From assembly GCA_024693545.1 (NCBI GenBank), contig JAILKT010000042.1:1-61732 (forward strand): DNA of 61,732 nt, in the 5' to 3' direction. This DNA is from Lachnospiraceae bacterium. Lineage in GTDB: Bacteria > Bacillota > Clostridia > Lachnospirales > Lachnospiraceae. A model generated the notes under the pieces. That model did not search any database. It saw nothing but the letters and a program-made list of their open reading frames with translations, and was not told where the DNA came from. Made by a program: the position numbers and the translations under genes. Positions 55,656-61,732 of the stretch are shown here, in pieces (positions within the stretch are counted from its first letter, which is position 1; every line of letters starts with the position of its first letter).

Positions 55656-56348
55656 ATGATCTATACTCATGAAGTTGAAATGATGTGCCCCGTTGCCAAA
55701 GGTGCAAAGCATGATCCGGCTCCTATCCCTCAGGAAGGAAAATGGACCAAGGTTAAAAAGGTTGAGGAAATTAACGGCTTTACACATGGCATTGGTTGGT
55801 GTGCACCCCAGCAGGGAGCTTGTAAGCTTTCCCTTAATGTAAAGGACGGAGTTATTCAGGAAGCACTCGTAGAGACTATCGGTTGTTCGGGTATGACCCA
55901 TTCTGCAGCTATGGCAGCAGAAATTCTTCCCGGCAAGACAGTTCTTGAGGCTATGAATTCCGACCTTGTTTGCGATGCGATCAATACAGCAATGAGAGAG
56001 CTCGCACTTCAGATAATCTATGGTCGTACTCAGTCTGCATTTTCTGATGACGGTCTTCCCGTCGGTGCAGGCCTTGAAGACCTCGGAAAAGGACTCAGAA
56101 GCCAGGTTGGTACAATGTATGGTACTCTCAAGAAGGGCCCCAGATATCTTGAAATGGCTGAGGGCTACGTTACAGGTATCGCTCTTGATGAGAATGACGA
56201 GATCATTGGGTACCAGTTTGTTAGTCTCGGAAAAATGACTGATTTCATCAAAAAAGGAGATGATCCCACCACAGCTTGGGAAAAAGCTAAAGGACAATAT
56301 GGCCGTGTTGACGATGCCGTAAAGATCATCGACCCCAGAAAAGAATGA
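55656..56348 (+). CDS. NifU-like iron-sulfur cluster assembly scaffold protein
   Basis: A 230-residue protein of the clostridial NifU-like scaffold group. NifU/IscU-type features: GWCAPQQGACKLSLNVKDGVI near residue 46 and ETIGCSGMTHSAAMAAEIL near 73, giving three cysteines in the expected places; a long C-terminal extension carries DDGLPVGAGLEDLGKGL and WEKAKGQYGRVDDAV. It is longer than IscU (about 130). It is transcribed with the GGGtGRT gene 16 bases downstream. ATG follows AAAGGAG. A large opposite-strand open frame across it is only a shadow. Codon use is highly biased, suggesting strong expression. Confidence 0.85.
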   Translation: MIYTHEVEMMCPVAKGAKHDPAPIPQEGKWTKVKKVEEINGFTHGIGWCAPQQGACKLSLNVKDGVIQEALVETIGCSGMTHSAAMAAEILPGKTVLEAMNSDLVCDAINTAMRELALQIIYGRTQSAFSDDGLPVGAGLEDLGKGLRSQVGTMYGTLKKGPRYLEMAEGYVTGIALDENDEIIGYQFVSLGKMTDFIKKGDDPTTAWEKAKGQYGRVDDAVKIIDPRKE

Positions 56349-56364: not shown

Positions 56365-57375
56365 ATGGCATTATTTGAATCATATGAGAGAAGAATTGAC
56401 CAGATAAATAAGGTCATCAAGGGATATGGCATCTCCTCTGTTGAGGAATGTGAAACTATCTGCAAAAATGCAGGCATAGATGTTTATGCGCTTGTTAAAA
56501 AAATCCAGCCGATCTGCTTTGAGAATGCTTGCTGGGCATATACAGTAGGTGCAGCTATTGCGATTAAGAAGGGATGCAAGAGGGCAGCCGATGCTTCGGC
56601 AGCTATAGGCGAAGGCCTTCAGGCTTTCTGTATTCCCGGTTCTGTTGCAGATCATCGTAAGGTAGGTCTCGGACACGGAAACCTCGGCAAAATGCTTCTT
56701 GAAGAAGAGACAGATTGCTTCTGCTTCCTTGCCGGACATGAGTCCTTTGCTGCAGCCGAAGGTGCAATCGGTATTGCCGAGAAGGCAAACCGCGTACGTA
56801 AGAAGCCACTCAGGGTTATCCTTAACGGTCTCGGAAAAGACGCAGCTCAGATCATTTCACGTATCAACGGATTTACATTCGTAGAGACGGAGATGGATTA
56901 CTTCTCGGGTGAAGTAAAAGAGATCAAGCGTACAGCTTATTCAAACGGTCCCCGTGCAAAGGTTAACTGCTATGGTGCAGACGACGTTACGGAAGGCGTT
57001 GCGATCATGTGGAAGGAAGGCGTTGACGTATCGATCACCGGTAACTCGACCAATCCCACACGTTTCCAGCATCCCGTTGCAGGTACATACAAGAAGGAAT
57101 GCAACGAGAAGGGCAAGAAGTACTTCTCGGTAGCATCGGGCGGCGGAACAGGTCGTACACTTCATCCCGATAACATGGCAGCAGGTCCTGCTTCTTACGG
57201 TATGACAGATACTATGGGCCGTATGCACAGCGACGCTCAGTTCGCAGGTTCTTCATCGGTTCCCGCACACGTTGAGATGATGGGTCTTATCGGAATGGGT
57301 AACAACCCCATGGTCGGTGCAACGGTAGCAGTCGCAGTAGCGGTTCAGGAAGCATTTGATAACGGAAAATGCTGA
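56365..57375 (+). CDS. GGGtGRT family protein
   Basis: A 336-residue protein with the motif SGGGTGRTLHPDN near residue 256 that names the family. Other conserved-looking runs are GLGHGNLGKMLLEEET, FLAGHESFAAAEGAIG, GNSTNPTRFQHP and GSSSVPAHVEMMGLIGMGNNPM. Function is unknown; the family is found with NifU-like scaffolds in anaerobic clostridia, so a role in metal or sulfur metabolism is plausible. There are three cysteines in the first 60 residues (ECETICKNAG; CFENACWAY). ATG follows TAGGAGGAGACTA. Heavily biased codons like the PFOR gene suggest a very abundant protein. Confidence 0.88.
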   Translation: MALFESYERRIDQINKVIKGYGISSVEECETICKNAGIDVYALVKKIQPICFENACWAYTVGAAIAIKKGCKRAADASAAIGEGLQAFCIPGSVADHRKVGLGHGNLGKMLLEEETDCFCFLAGHESFAAAEGAIGIAEKANRVRKKPLRVILNGLGKDAAQIISRINGFTFVETEMDYFSGEVKEIKRTAYSNGPRAKVNCYGADDVTEGVAIMWKEGVDVSITGNSTNPTRFQHPVAGTYKKECNEKGKKYFSVASGGGTGRTLHPDNMAAGPASYGMTDTMGRMHSDAQFAGSSSVPAHVEMMGLIGMGNNPMVGATVAVAVAVQEAFDNGKC

Positions 57376-57557: not shown

Positions 57558-59411
57558 ATGAAAAGCATTAAAGATATATTAAATATTAAAAAAATATCTC
57601 TTGTCAGAAGAATACTAATTTCCGTCGCTATTTTAGTATTCGTTTTTTTGTTTGAATATTTGGGTTTGTTCAGGACTATAGATAATTATATATTTGATAT
57701 TGCGTATATGCAGCATAAACAGATCGATCTTCCTATTACGATCATCGGTATAGACGAGCCTACTCTCAGTAATTTGGAAGAGGGCGGACTCGGAGATTAC
57801 GAGCAATGGGACAGAAGTTATTACGCAAAACTTTTGGAGATAATTTGTACCGATGAATACGCACCGGCAGAGATTGTATTCGATATTTTGTTTTCCGGCC
57901 CCAAAACTCCCGAAGGTGATGCCGCATTTATTGAGCAGATCCAAAAATATGGAAAATGCATCTTTGGTGAAAGGCTTGAGTTTGATGAGCAGATCATTAC
58001 CGAAGAGAACGGTGTAAAACGTCTTGATACAGCTCATATTACAACCGTTGGAAAGCTTTTCCCCGAACTTGAAGCCCTTAACCCGAAGAGAGCGTTCACA
58101 AATAACAACAGTGCATATGATAAGTTTATAAGAACATTTATACCTTGTTTTAAAAATCCTGAATATTCAGGCGATTGTCTTGCTTATGCAGCATATAAAT
58201 ATTACTGCGAACAAAATGGAATCGAATATACCAAATTCAGTGAAGACGGAATTCCGGTACAGTTACGTTTCTCTTATGCGGGACCTCCAGGAGAGTTTGA
58301 AACGGTGTCGTTTGTTGATGTTTTGAACGGTGAAGTCGATCCCAGAGCTTTTAAGGATAAAATTGTGTTTGTCGGTGGAACTTCAACCGGATTCCAGGAC
58401 GATTTCTTTACTCCTGCGGATTATAGACATACAATGTACGGAGTTGAGATTCATGCAAATATCTTGGAAGCGATTTATGACGGGGATTATCAGACAGATG
58501 CCAATTCAATTTCTATGGGTATTGTTTATGGTATTGTAACCGGATTGATCTTCTTTATTATTTGTTTCCTATCACTTCCGGTAAGTGCGATACTTTCATT
58601 AATAATGCTTGTTGCAAACATCGTTCTCGGAAGAACTTTATATGAAAACGGTATTGTTATAGATCAGTTTTCGTATATGTTGGCGATCATATTATCATAT
58701 ATCGGAATGGTTGTTCACCATTACTTGAAAGAGCGAGCAGCCAAAAAGAAAGTTTCCGATGCGTTTAAGATGTATGTTGCTCCCGAAATCGTTAAGGAAG
58801 TTGCCGGTCAGGGCGATTTCGTTCTTAACCTTGGCGGCCGCAACAAAGACATCGCTGTTCTTTTCATTGATATTCGTGGATTTACATCAATGTCAGAGAA
58901 CCTTAGTCCCGAGGAGGTCGTAAATATTCTCAATGAGTATTTTGCCGTTGTTACGGAGGCCGTCTTCAAGAACAAAGGAACAATAGACAAGTTCATCGGT
59001 GATGCGTGCATGGCGGTATTTAACTCGCCGTTCGATCTCGATGATTATGTATTCCGCGCTGTACATACAGGTTGGGATATACTTCAGAGTGGACAAAAGC
59101 TTCAGAACACCCTTATGGAAAAATATGGACGTACGATCAATTTCGGTATCGGCGTTAACTGCGGTGAAGCCGTCATCGGTAATATAGGCTGTGAATTCCG
59201 AATGGACTACACGGCTATCGGAGATACGGTTAATACTTCGTCTCGTCTCGAGTCGAATGCCAAAGCAGGACAGCTTTTGATCAGTGAAGAAGTATTAAGG
59301 CGTCTGGAAGGCAGGATCACGGTAGAAGAAATCGGTGCTATCCCTCTTAAGGGAAAATCAAAGCACATTATGGTCTACAATGTGATCGGTATTAAGGAGG
59401 AAGAAGAATAA
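57558..59411 (+). CDS. CHASE2-containing class III adenylate cyclase
   Basis: A 617-residue membrane signalling enzyme. Residue ~17-36 is a first membrane helix, about 40-320 an extracellular CHASE2 domain (IIGIDEPTL; VFDILFSG; DKIVFVGGTSTGF), then three helices near 325-395, and a cytosolic class III cyclase domain at about 425-600. Metal-binding Asp residues lie in LFIDIRGFT and IGDACMAVF; substrate-specificity Lys and Asp are in TIDKFIGD and MDYTAIGD; the transition-state Asn/Arg are in NTSSRLES. All suggest ATP as substrate, hence cAMP. The frame is open to 57525, but ATG 57558 follows TAGGAGAAGGGGAG. Its TAA shares one base with the next ATG, so both proteins are coupled. Confidence 0.9.
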   Translation: MKSIKDILNIKKISLVRRILISVAILVFVFLFEYLGLFRTIDNYIFDIAYMQHKQIDLPITIIGIDEPTLSNLEEGGLGDYEQWDRSYYAKLLEIICTDEYAPAEIVFDILFSGPKTPEGDAAFIEQIQKYGKCIFGERLEFDEQIITEENGVKRLDTAHITTVGKLFPELEALNPKRAFTNNNSAYDKFIRTFIPCFKNPEYSGDCLAYAAYKYYCEQNGIEYTKFSEDGIPVQLRFSYAGPPGEFETVSFVDVLNGEVDPRAFKDKIVFVGGTSTGFQDDFFTPADYRHTMYGVEIHANILEAIYDGDYQTDANSISMGIVYGIVTGLIFFIICFLSLPVSAILSLIMLVANIVLGRTLYENGIVIDQFSYMLAIILSYIGMVVHHYLKERAAKKKVSDAFKMYVAPEIVKEVAGQGDFVLNLGGRNKDIAVLFIDIRGFTSMSENLSPEEVVNILNEYFAVVTEAVFKNKGTIDKFIGDACMAVFNSPFDLDDYVFRAVHTGWDILQSGQKLQNTLMEKYGRTINFGIGVNCGEAVIGNIGCEFRMDYTAIGDTVNTSSRLESNAKAGQLLISEEVLRRLEGRITVEEIGAIPLKGKSKHIMVYNVIGIKEEEE

Positions 59412-61732
59412 TGAATTTATTACACATCATCCCTAATCGTAGTGATGTTGATAAATGGGCGCGTATAGCAAAAGAACTTAGTGCGGTATTTGAATATAAT
59501 GATTTCTTTGATCCGGAACTTATTGAGAACAAGGAAGAATACGAAGCAACCATTCAGAAATATCTTGCGCTTGACAGAGACAGAACGAAAGACACATTTC
59601 ACGGAGTTTTCTATGACATAGTGCTCAATTCGCTTGATCCGGCGATAAGACAAAAGAGTATCGAAAGAGTATATCTAAGCTGTGAAACGGCTGTAAGACT
59701 TGAATGCAGAGCTGTTATTTTCCATACTAATTATATCGTAGGTTTTAAAAGTATTCCCTACAGGGATAAATGGGTCAAGGATATGGCCGCATTCTATAAA
59801 AAGCTTGTGGACGATTTCCCGACACTTGAAATCTATGTTGAAAACATGTATGACGATACTCCGGAGCTTTTGAGACGACTTGCCGAAGCTCTCAGAGATG
59901 AGCCTCGTTTCGGTGTTTGTTTTGACCTTGCTCATGCATATCTTTGGGAAGTTCCGCTTAAAGAGTGGATTGATGAGCTTTCACCGTATATACGTCATAT
60001 TCATGCCAATGACAACCATAAAGACCAGGATTCTCATATGGCGATCGGAACGGGAAGTCTTGACTGGTCAATACTAAACTATAGACAACTTATTAAAAAC
60101 AAGCCTTCGATCCTTATTGAGGTTTCTGACGAAGAAAGACTTATGAAGTCATATAACTACCTCATTAAGAATTGTCTTTATCCTTTCCATATGCGTAACC
60201 GTATCAACATGGAAGTTACCGATGATATGGAGAGGATCCTCGAGATCGGTCGTGAACTCACTATTCAGAAAGATTATGCAAAGCTTCTGGAAAATATTAT
60301 CGGTGAAGCGATGGAAATCGCCAACTGTGATGCCGGAACACTTTACATATTTAACGAAGACAAACTTCACTTCATGATCATGCGTAATAATACCATGAAC
60401 GTTTATCAGGGAGGTAACGGCGAACCCGTTAATATACCGCCCGTAAAAATGGAAGAGAAGTATGTTTGTGCGTATTGTGCACTTCATAATGAAACGATCA
60501 ACGTCGATGATGTATATACAAACGAACGATTCGATTGGAAGGGACCTCGTGAGTATGACAAAATGACAGGCTACAGAACGCGTTCCATGCTTGTCATTCC
60601 TCTCGAAAATCATGACGGAAAAGTTATCGGTGTACTTCAGCTAATTAATGCACTCGATATAAACGGGGATGTTTGCAACTTCAGTGAGAACAACGAGTTC
60701 ATAACCTCATCGCTGGCTTCACAGGCAGCAATTTCGCTCTCGAACATGCTGATGATCAAAGAACTCAAGGATCTGTTAAATTCCTTCGTGGAATCGATGG
60801 TTACCGCAATAGACTCGCGTACTCCTTATAACGCGAACCATACGATGCACGTTGCGGAATATTGTGACAGGTTTTGCAGATATTTGCAGGATCTCTACAT
60901 TCAAAACAAAGTTAAATACAATCTTACAAATGATGACCGTGAAGAACTTGTCATGGCGGCAAAGCTTCACGACATAGGCAAGATGATCACGCCGCTTAAC
61001 GTTATGAATAAAGCCGATCGTCTTTCTGATCTTATGCCCATAATGGAGATGAGATTTAAGCTTATAGAGCAGATTCTTAAGACCAAGCACGCAAAAGGGG
61101 AATACGACCGGGCTCAATATGATGAAGCAAAAGCAGCACTTGAAGACAATATAAAATTCATAAAAGAAGTAAATGTTGCCGGATTCCTTCAGGACGATGT
61201 TCTTGAAAGAGTAAATTCTCTTGAAAATATTGTTTATGAAACGGGAGATGATTCCGTACGCCTTGTTACAGATGAAGAAATGGCGCTCCTTCGCATCAGG
61301 AAGGGTACACTTTCGGCGGAAGAAAGACATATTATGGAACAGCATGTCGAATATACCGAAAAGATACTTTCCGCCATTACTTTCGGCGACAAATACAAGA
61401 ACGTTAAGTTCTTTGCTTCCGCACATCATGAATATCTTGACGGTTCGGGATATCCCAAACATCTTAAGGCTGAAGATCTGCCTACTCAGGTCAGAATGCT
61501 TACCATCATGGATGTTTTTGACTCTCTTTCATCAAGCGACAGACCTTATCGTAAGGTTCAGCTTTCAAATGAAAGAATCTTCCAGATTCTTGAAGCAATG
61601 GTAGGTGAAGGAAAGCTTGACGGTGAGCTTGTTGCACTTGCAAAGGATTGTTTCTGCAATTCACAAAATGAATGCGCAAACTCTGATACATCTTCACACA
61701 GAGCAGGTTCCGAGGCTGAGGAAAGAGCAGTC
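59411..61732 (+). CDS. TIM barrel-GAF-HD-GYP fusion protein (runs off the right edge)
   Basis: At least 774 residues, open to the window end. Residues ~1-265 form a xylose-isomerase/endonuclease-IV-like TIM barrel with the metal ligands in place: Glu144 (VENMY), Asp172 and His175 (FDLAH), His196/His198 (RHIHAND) and Glu237 (LIEVSD). A GAF domain spans about 285-430 (SMLVIPLENHDGKVIGVLQL). The HD-GYP domain follows: His477 (NHTMHVAEY), HDIGKM at 520-525, an inserted helical segment at about 535-630, then HHEYLDGSGYP at 672-682 and RPYRK. HD-GYP enzymes break down c-di-GMP or related dinucleotides. The ATG overlaps the cyclase TAA by one base, with AAGGAGG ten bases ahead. No usual gene name fits this architecture. 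Confidence 0.88.
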   Translation, partial: MNLLHIIPNRSDVDKWARIAKELSAVFEYNDFFDPELIENKEEYEATIQKYLALDRDRTKDTFHGVFYDIVLNSLDPAIRQKSIERVYLSCETAVRLECRAVIFHTNYIVGFKSIPYRDKWVKDMAAFYKKLVDDFPTLEIYVENMYDDTPELLRRLAEALRDEPRFGVCFDLAHAYLWEVPLKEWIDELSPYIRHIHANDNHKDQDSHMAIGTGSLDWSILNYRQLIKNKPSILIEVSDEERLMKSYNYLIKNCLYPFHMRNRINMEVTDDMERILEIGRELTIQKDYAKLLENIIGEAMEIANCDAGTLYIFNEDKLHFMIMRNNTMNVYQGGNGEPVNIPPVKMEEKYVCAYCALHNETINVDDVYTNERFDWKGPREYDKMTGYRTRSMLVIPLENHDGKVIGVLQLINALDINGDVCNFSENNEFITSSLASQAAISLSNMLMIKELKDLLNSFVESMVTAIDSRTPYNANHTMHVAEYCDRFCRYLQDLYIQNKVKYNLTNDDREELVMAAKLHDIGKMITPLNVMNKADRLSDLMPIMEMRFKLIEQILKTKHAKGEYDRAQYDEAKAALEDNIKFIKEVNVAGFLQDDVLERVNSLENIVYETGDDSVRLVTDEEMALLRIRKGTLSAEERHIMEQHVEYTEKILSAITFGDKYKNVKFFASAHHEYLDGSGYPKHLKAEDLPTQVRMLTIMDVFDSLSSSDRPYRKVQLSNERIFQILEAMVGEGKLDGELVALAKDCFCNSQNECANSDTSSHRAGSEAEERAV

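Follow-up and report, generated by a model that had tools for sequence, protein, structure and literature searches.

The window, a 61,732-nucleotide stretch of DNA that makes up one whole contig of a Lachnospiraceae genome, ends within a gene that joins three domains. Its open frame runs from 59411 to 61732 on the forward strand, as do all features described here, and encodes 774 residues; the 3′ end is cut by the contig end at 61732, so that the C-terminus of the protein lies beyond the sequence. Nine complete copies of fused homologues are 757 to 773 residues long; a complete homologue at L086, for example, has 765 residues. A likely ribosome-binding site, AAGGAGG, can be read at 59394 to 59400, and directly upstream Pfam identifies a CHASE2-class III adenylate cyclase of 617 residues (57558 to 59411), whose TAA (59409 to 59411) overlaps the ATG of the fused gene by one base. 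In the fused protein, Pfam places AP_endonuc_2 (PF01261) at residues 62–219 (78.7 bits, cut-off 31.1), GAF at 290–443 (52.7 bits, cut-off 22.4), HD at 475–534 (42.8 bits, cut-off 22), and HD_5 at 623–740 (95.8 bits, cut-off 27.2). Together with the open frame, this bears out an earlier note on this DNA, which had proposed that barrel, GAF, and HD-GYP are united in one frame.

The N-terminal domain (residues 1–256; 59411 to 60178) is an endonuclease IV (EndoIV)-like TIM barrel according to Pfam, conservation in 81 of 81 barrels, the AlphaFold model, and Foldseek. A flexible linker (residues 261–267; 60191 to 60211; pLDDT below 50), located near the gene boundary of split relatives, precedes the GAF domain (residues 271–445; 60221 to 60745), which is supported by Pfam, the model, and Foldseek. 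A helix of 45 residues (426–470; 60686 to 60820; DSSP on the model) connects the GAF to the HD-GYP domain (residues 450–751; 60758 to 61663), assigned from Pfam HD and HD_5, conserved His and Asp residues, and PDB matches. The Pfam HD halves lie apart: an insert of about 85–90 residues, absent from the earlier note, separates the two halves of this domain, and in the model it is mostly helical (about residues 541–620; 61031 to 61270), with helices at 541–561 and 567–588. The variable C-terminal tail (residues 752–774; 61664 to 61732; pLDDT below 50) is cut by the contig end. For the overall domain arrangement of the full protein, the model has a pTM of 0.55. Term searches of the open-access literature, with subscription papers outside their scope, found no description of this architecture, as the earlier note had supposed.

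Because the gene is fused in 11 of 24 genomes of the same genus, at identities down to 55%, we consider it the product of a fusion event and rule out a frame error or assembly artefact, although barrel and GAF-HD-GYP are adjacent separate genes in 8 of the 24. Separate genes in relatives had been named beforehand as a sign of a frame error; the split forms do exist, but the frame error does not. The fused forms make up one clade in our tree; in this single Lachnospiraceae clade, two operon genes are one. The cassette barrel was not seen in 5 of the 24 genus members, all of them genomes that are 64–83% complete.

By sequence, the C-terminal domain belongs to the HD-GYP family: Pfam HD and HD_5 score over their cut-offs, and the metal ligands are present, as are both motifs reported earlier, HD (520–521) and HHExxDGxGYP (672–682). 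H477, H520, D521, H645, H672, H673, and D701 are invariant in 49 of 49 rows, and D677 of the longer motif is Asp in 34 rows and Asn in 15. The PDB matches include 5z7c (V-cGAP3, a 3′3′-cGAMP phosphodiesterase) and 4mcw (PmGH, an HD-GYP), which have the metal ligands, the HHExxDGxGYP motif, and the fold in common with the window protein; the latter differs in its insert and in the barrel and GAF in front. Foldseek matches the GAF domain to the GAFs of PDE5, PDE2, and a cyanobacterial adenylyl cyclase. The genome has 20 GGDEF matches, which makes c-di-GMP synthesis in this bacterium likely.

Nine positions of the barrel correspond to EndoIV-type metal ligands (H64, H105, E144, D172, H175, H198, D207, H209, and E237), an assignment that leans on the ligand list of Escherichia coli endonuclease IV, which we take to hold here. 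The residues named in the earlier note (E144, D172, H175, H196/H198, and E237) are present, and none of them varies among the 81 barrels; H64, H105, D207, and H209 are added here. All nine positions are kept in the 81 aligned barrels and in 16 of 16 further members. Their value as proof of a phosphodiesterase is reduced, since the site is shared by 19 of 20 weakly matching AP_endonuc_2 relatives that are themselves uncharacterised (the remaining one is gapped at position 64).

The PF01261 score and the TIM barrel fold of the model place the domain in the AP_endonuc_2 superfamily, where its nearest named families are CbiR and EndoIV. The CbiR model (NF041277) gives 39.7 bits for the barrel alone and 36.6 for the whole protein (cut-off 105), and the EndoIV NCBIfam models give 24.3, 19.2, and 15.7 bits for the barrel (cut-offs 244, 129.65, and 376); all scores being below the cut-offs, membership of either family was rejected. 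Among 14 members, PRK01060.1-3 (EndoIV) matches 14 and CbiR 13. Endonuclease IV (Nfo) matches the window barrel in fold and in each of the nine metal-ligand positions, whereas the barrel scores below the cut-offs and lies in a signalling operon, not in DNA repair. CbiR is described as a cobamide remodelling phosphodiesterase that cleaves a phosphate-ribose bond and has to be purified in the absence of oxygen (PMC7733943). The best named match of the window barrel, it is likewise an AP_endonuc_2 barrel of approximately 250 residues with His/Asp/Glu metal-ligand positions; by contrast, the window barrel remains below the cut-off, lies beside a cyclase, and is fused to GAF-HD-GYP, and Pfam found no cobamide genes among the six genes upstream in the window.

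Foldseek with the barrel model (pLDDT 94.2, pTM 0.91) returned TTHB071 and MJ1311 as best matches and endonuclease IV next by E-value, and the sequence matches likewise rank MJ1311, TTHB071, and EndoIV first. We know of no tested function for MJ1311 or TTHB071, and a literature search on the two gave nothing bearing on the barrel among the titles. This ranking argues against an enzyme that isomerises or epimerises sugar phosphates and against a sensor retained for sugar binding. In favour of such a sugar reading are the Pfam family name, low scores for fructoselysine 3-epimerase (24.7 bits, cut-off 305) and for IolO (20.5 bits, cut-off 300), the D-tagatose epimerases and UlaE among the structure matches (TM-score 0.70 for UlaE versus 0.69–0.70 for EndoIV by query length, with a worse E-value for UlaE), and the record title of MJ1311, a D-tagatose 3-epimerase-like protein. 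The ligand positions again argue against it, since 18 of 18 TIGR00542 3-epimerases above the cut-off lack at least H105, H175, D207, and H209 while keeping E144, D172, H198, and E237; with all nine positions present, the window barrel is not of this four-ligand type (E, D, H, E). Position 64, which is Ser in the epimerases with a His three residues later in the rows shown, does not discriminate safely. Reading the neighbourhoods by eye, we noticed no recurring sugar genes near the barrel. A sugar epimerase is thus disfavoured on ligand positions, with position 64 uncertain, and we regard the sugar reading in both its forms as improbable. The carbohydrate-type enzyme or sugar-geometry sensor of the earlier note gives way before the nine EndoIV ligands, of which epimerases lack at least four, and before an adenylate cyclase as the steadiest neighbour.

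That neighbour scores 130.7 bits for CHASE2 and 100.5 bits for Guanylate_cyc, and its D438, K478, D482, T552, N559, and R563 are invariant in 70 of 70 aligned domains, including that of the window. We take these residues to be the two metal Asp, the Lys and Thr for adenine, and the Asn and Arg, and by sequence the gene qualifies as a class III adenylate cyclase. Neighbourhoods were scanned at the best 80 of 241 relatives, picked by barrel similarity alone, with profiles built from 10 proteins each (barrel, cyclase), from 5 (FecR-type), or from the window only (GAF, HD-GYP). Within these 80 loci, a cyclase lies immediately 5′ of the barrel within 200 bp in 65 and within 250 bp in 66, and GAF-HD-GYP follows as a separate gene at 38 loci and forms part of the barrel gene at 10. 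No HD-GYP is found at 22 of the 66 cyclase-barrel loci (22 of all 80) despite at least 2 kb of downstream sequence, which makes the cyclase, as judged by gene order, a steadier partner of the barrel than HD-GYP. Of the earlier note's reading, a connection between the barrel and cyclic-nucleotide signalling is supported.

The same loci bear on a further possibility, that the barrel is a metallophosphohydrolase acting downstream of HD-GYP, for example on linear pGpG, with the fusion channelling the product. Its fusion partner is indeed HD-GYP, and 7 of the 80 loci have barrel and HD-GYP with no cyclase in the flanking DNA. However, the 22 loci with cyclase and barrel only weigh against it, as do 16 loci where a Fic gene precedes cyclase and barrel, all of them without HD-GYP (one, L135, has less than 1 kb downstream). 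At 11 of the 80, the flanking DNA lacks a cyclase, and a class III cyclase is encoded elsewhere in 6 of 8 such genomes searched; PF00211 is absent from 2 of 5 searched genomes of the loci with barrel and HD-GYP but no cyclase.

By sequence, the operon comprises a CHASE2-adenylate cyclase, the EndoIV-like barrel, and GAF-HD-GYP, often with a FecR-type protein. Pfam confirms FecR in 3 of 3 such proteins, which came from the 80 loci or the genus; near the closest relatives of the window, no FecR-type match was seen at the four loci with downstream DNA (L084 to L087). In Anaeroplasma, two loci have the barrel oriented divergently from two paired genes, which encode a cNMP-binding protein (Pfam, 2 of 2) and, in the one pair tested, an RCK-channel-like protein. 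In one study, most CHASE2-cyclase clusters of Campylobacterota include a cAMP phosphodiesterase together with FecR, and the clusters also have TPR proteins (PMC9239204). These clusters resemble ours in the CHASE2-cyclase, the frequent FecR, and the adjoining metal hydrolase, whereas the hydrolase of our cassettes, located next to GAF-HD-GYP, is either an EndoIV-like barrel or a metallo-beta-lactamase (MBL). In a co-occurrence sample of 196 genomes of the class, 11 with CHASE2, the three best barrel matches (above 170 bits) fall in CHASE2 genomes and the next seven (86–134 bits) in genomes without it; with so few cases this carries little weight, and among the three best matches that of G201 (L174) is a remnant.

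An MBL-fold protein can stand where the barrel otherwise does. A survey of 392 genomes from the order yielded 47 GAF-HD-GYP genes; an MBL adjoins or is fused to 32 of them and the barrel to 8, and none has both. The profile behind this count (A4) included the window and five MBL-linked seeds from the sample (G047, G048, G052, G053, and G058); minus these six rows, the 41 genes divide into 27 with MBL, 7 with barrel, 1 fused to CHASE2, and 6 with none, two of which (L216 and L222) have little flanking DNA on one side. As a control, eight (L001 to L008) of nine other HD_5 matches in the same genome were checked, and none had an MBL or barrel match within 1.5-kb flanks. On a 69-row tree made with a quick method, the barrel label requires 3 changes, of which at least 2 are forced; this tree has 49 earlier rows thinned to 25 and omits L229 (gene in two frames), L230 (fused to CHASE2), and the duplicate window row. 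The MBL also occurs fused, in two MBL-GAF-HD-GYP proteins (L205 and L209) and in MBL-GAF-GGDEF proteins (L168 to L170). Both types share with the window protein the order of metal hydrolase, GAF, and cyclic-dinucleotide enzyme; they differ by the MBL fold in place of the barrel and, in L168 to L170, by GGDEF in place of HD-GYP.

The MBL heads resemble RNase Z more closely than they do established cNMP phosphodiesterases: that of L205 scores 78.5 bits for RNase Z (cut-off 252) and 43.8 for a "cyclic nucleotide-degrading phosphodiesterase" (cut-off 400). This likeness counts against cAMP as the substrate and in favour of the pGpG reading, which we nonetheless judge unlikely overall. The HxHxDH motif is present in 34 of 34 MBL stretches. 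Replacement by such a metal hydrolase, together with the exceptionless retention of the nine ligands in 81 rows from distant taxa, points to catalysis, on a substrate that either fold is able to cleave. This weighs against a phosphodiesterase with a different ligand and against a non-catalytic, metal-bound adaptor that would regulate the cyclase or HD-GYP. Such a role would accord with the breadth of the EndoIV-like site across the superfamily and with the fact that gene order indicates partnership, not substrate, and we hold it to be quite unlikely.

Because a cyclase adjoins the barrel, the nine ligands are kept, and the MBL fold replaces it, we favour a metallophosphodiesterase. The window protein would then be a fusion of two signal-ending enzymes from one conserved operon, the barrel most likely cutting cAMP, a reading to which we give almost even credence; cAMP as substrate we infer from two things, gene order and MBL replacement. 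CHASE2, plus FecR where present, would set the cyclase, and the barrel, as a multinuclear-metal phosphodiesterase, would terminate the signal of the adjoining cyclase, most likely through cleavage of cAMP at its P-O3′ bond, which would yield 5′-AMP. The GAF may read a small ligand, for which cAMP or its product is the obvious candidate, and the long helix could transmit the state of the GAF and so set the HD-GYP domain, which would hydrolyse c-di-GMP (or 3′3′-cGAMP). Fusion would keep removal of cAMP and of the cyclic dinucleotide in one polypeptide, at a fixed ratio. More tentatively, the barrel may be a cyclic-mononucleotide phosphodiesterase of a new structural class, built on the fold of endonuclease IV and CbiR. 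In the CHASE2-cyclase cassettes of Clostridia and Acholeplasmatales, this class would alternate with MBL-fold hydrolases, and its fusion to GAF-HD-GYP in one genus would yield a single protein terminating two second-messenger signals together.

To our knowledge, it is largely open how gut and rumen Clostridia remove cAMP and whether their cAMP circuits are connected to those of c-di-GMP. The cassette makes this question testable, with a metal hydrolase head of two unrelated folds, an adjoining or fused cyclic-dinucleotide enzyme, and an adenylate cyclase encoded alongside. Should the barrel prove to degrade cAMP, it would be a signal-terminating enzyme of a new type, and some of the numerous genes now named "xylose-isomerase-like barrel" or "sugar isomerase/epimerase" would be signalling phosphodiesterases whose names mislead.

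The fused gene at 59411..61732 (+) encodes 774 residues in one frame without a stop, and the contig end is reached before the gene end. Pfam places AP_endonuc_2 (62-219), GAF (290-443), HD (475-534) and HD_5 (623-740) on the protein, all above curated cut-offs, and we take the HD and HD_5 pieces as a single HD-GYP domain that, as modelled, would be interrupted by a mostly helical insert. The contig of a 96% identical relative (G014; locus L010, position 1) ends within the fused gene at the same base as the window contig (61732). In a genus sample of 24 genomes, own included, 11 carry the fused gene, at 85-100% identity (G000, G014, G017, G011, G010 and G023) or 55-57% (G003, G015, G018, G004 and G008). 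The earlier note had described a one-frame fusion, and this is borne out and a frame error ruled out, although 8/24 genomes (G001, G005, G006, G007, G009, G013, G016 and G022) have barrel and GAF-HD-GYP as adjacent separate genes. Contig ends truncate the barrel of G001 and, in both G000 and G014, the fused gene; a strong match is missing from 5/24 genomes, each 64-83% complete. Among 49 GAF-HD-GYP rows placed in a tree, a single branch (99/97) separates all 11 fused ones from the rest, and one branch (100/98) likewise splits off the fused rows among 81 barrels, so that one fusion of two adjacent genes would be the simplest history. Four fused-type loci have a second, unfused GAF-HD-GYP gene before the cyclase (L088 2337-3809, L089 2386-3858, L091 2496-3974 and L092 2460-3935).

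The barrel (residues 1-256) alone gave a confident structure model (pLDDT 94.2, pTM 0.91). Ranked by E-value, Foldseek returned TTHB071 (TM-score to target 0.82), MJ1311, which carries an epimerase-like title, and endonuclease IV (EndoIV) before UlaE and tagatose epimerases, whereas UlaE and EndoIV are equal by TM-score. A profile search of PDB sequences gave MJ1311, TTHB071 and several EndoIV, then AsbF and a putative sugar isomerase. The barrel residues that the earlier note had listed as intact are correct, and nine ligand positions are predicted in total (H64, H105, E144, D172, H175, H198, D207, H209 and E237), which we take to correspond to the zinc ligands of E. coli EndoIV. The EndoIV register is visible in alignments to 3wqo and 5zhz, with H64 only in the former. 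All nine are invariant in 81/81 aligned barrels and 16/16 further members. As a control, 18/18 above-cut-off TIGR00542 epimerases retain E144, D172, H198 and E237 but lack H105, H175, D207 and H209. Their alignment shows a Ser at position 64 with a His three residues later, making this position non-decisive. The predicted site is thus EndoIV-like, yet not special to the cassette, because 19/20 weak, uncharacterised AP_endonuc_2 matches also possess all nine positions.

Cyclic-nucleotide phosphodiesterases cleave a phosphate-to-ribose kind of bond. The best-scoring named family for the window barrel, CbiR, cuts the same kind: PMC7733943 describes cleavage of the cobamide phosphoribosyl bond to alpha-ribazole and cobinamide-phosphate. 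Two distant barrel relatives (L177 5297-6061 and L181 5752-6552) have neighbours resembling, by eye, cobalamin synthesis genes; they score 49.8 and 42.1 bits against CbiR, below the cut-off, and are possibly unrecognised CbiR.

By Pfam, the gene directly upstream (57558..59411, +) combines a CHASE2 domain with the catalytic domain of a class III cyclase. Two metal aspartates, Lys478, Thr552, Asn559 and Arg563 are invariant in 70/70 aligned cyclase domains, and we therefore call it an adenylate cyclase; the aspartates presumably bind metal, and Lys478 with Thr552 presumably marks the adenine type. Directly upstream of it lie a GGGtGRT-family gene (56365-57375; 643 bits) and, before that, a NifU_N-like gene (55656-56348; 19.7 bits, under Pfam's cut-off of 22); the former has a counterpart, by eye, at the same place in L040, L041 and L046.

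What occupies the barrel's position elsewhere was counted in an order sample of 392 genomes, 47 of which have a GAF-HD-GYP of the window subfamily at E 1e-100 or better, taking partners that are fused or at most 200 bp away. A metallo-beta-lactamase (MBL)-fold partner is found in 32/47 (29 same strand, one other strand, two fused) and a barrel in 8/47 (six, one and one, the last being the window protein); CHASE2 is fused to GAF-HD-GYP in 1/47, and 6/47 have none of these three partners. Within the examined flanks, MBL and barrel never occur together at the same GAF-HD-GYP (0/47). Leaving out six rows that are profile seeds or the window, the counts are 27, 7, 1 and 6 (n = 41). HxHxDH is kept in 34/34 MBL stretches, including two from the class sample. 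The two 783-residue fusions (L205 1438-3789 and L209 652-3003; MBL 1-266, GAF 284-458, HD-GYP 464-752) match the window protein (barrel 3-257, GAF 270-444, HD-GYP 450-749) in layout, with an MBL head in place of the barrel. In a quick 69-row tree the barrel label requires three changes, at least two of them forced by well-supported branches. Replacing HD-GYP by a diguanylate cyclase domain gives the arrangement of the MBL-GAF-GGDEF proteins that directly follow the cyclase in 3/12 stretches around class-sample CHASE2 genes (L168 8379-10094, L169 178-1887 and L170 3262-4974). That a single slot is occupied by either of two unrelated metal hydrolases, both of which have become fused to the same partner, is our best evidence that the barrel is a catalyst acting on a phosphoester. 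According to PMC9117128, class II MBL-fold phosphodiesterases such as YhfI and Apyc1 cleave cyclic mononucleotides. Matches of the tested MBL heads to Apyc1 or a cyclic-nucleotide phosphodiesterase family are weak and under the cut-off, and those to RNase Z are stronger. CHASE2 is fused straight onto HD-GYP in L037 (346-2400), adjoined by a FecR-type gene, and L230 (2538-4556).

Scanning a genome collection with the barrel alignment gave 241 relatives, the best 80 of which (by record title Lachnospiraceae, other Clostridia, Acholeplasmatales, Anaeroplasma and a few 'Bacilli') were used for the locus counts that follow, with neighbour profiles built mostly from genus proteins, those for GAF and HD-GYP being derived from the window sequence alone. 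The cyclase lies immediately 5' of the barrel, within 200 bp, in 65/80 loci; GAF-HD-GYP is the next gene in 38/80 and fused in 10/80, and a FecR-type gene is within the examined DNA of 43/80. Cyclase-barrel gaps group near 0, most frequently -4, a spacing that resembles translationally coupled operons. Classified with a 250 bp limit, the same 80 comprise cyclase with separate (30) or fused (10) HD-GYP, cyclase without HD-GYP (22 with at least 2 kb examined, plus four with less), HD-GYP without cyclase (seven), neither (four) and other orders (three). The cyclase is therefore the barrel's steadier partner, and the 22 loci count against the main rival explanation, that the barrel or MBL head takes the HD-GYP product as its substrate. 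Eleven loci lack a cyclase in the examined DNA; a class III cyclase is present elsewhere in 6/8 of their genomes searched, and that of L125 is, judging by names, on the same contig just outside the examined stretch. In two Anaeroplasma loci (L121 4202-5853 and L152 3993-5638) the barrel is divergent from a channel-like gene, with an RCK domain by Pfam in L121 and by eye in L152, followed by a cNMP-binding protein gene (Pfam, 2/2).

Other neighbours were also seen. By our own profile, 16 of these 80 loci have a Fic-like gene ahead of the cyclase-barrel pair (L105, L107-L109, L112, L114-L116, L119, L120, L122, L123, L129, L132, L133 and L135), with Pfam Fic confirmed in 2/2 tested. L118 (483-5991) has a GAF-ABC ATPase gene before the cyclase and an FtsX/MacB permease gene between cyclase and barrel. 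In L174 (6049-7239; genome G201), a partial CHASE2 runs into a barrel whose middle is missing, and a FecR-type gene follows; the stretch appears to be what a cassette deletion left behind.

From the observed gene order, fusion and intact sites we infer the signalling steps: an envelope signal would reach CHASE2 (and FecR where present), the cyclase would then make cAMP, the barrel would remove it, and GAF-HD-GYP would couple this removal to that of c-di-GMP. GGDEF proteins occur in 24/24 genus genomes (20 matches in the own genome) and a cNMP-binding domain above cut-off in 23/24, so that both messengers are likely in use. The closest precedent, described in PMC9239204, is a Campylobacterota cluster of CHASE2-cyclase, cAMP phosphodiesterase and FecR. 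Neither the barrel-GAF-HD-GYP fusion nor such a barrel as a signalling enzyme was found described in the open-access papers searched. We see the window protein and its cassette as a variation on two known themes, HD-GYP proteins and CHASE2-cyclase signalling clusters, and there is a fair chance that the barrel represents a new class of cyclic-nucleotide phosphodiesterase.
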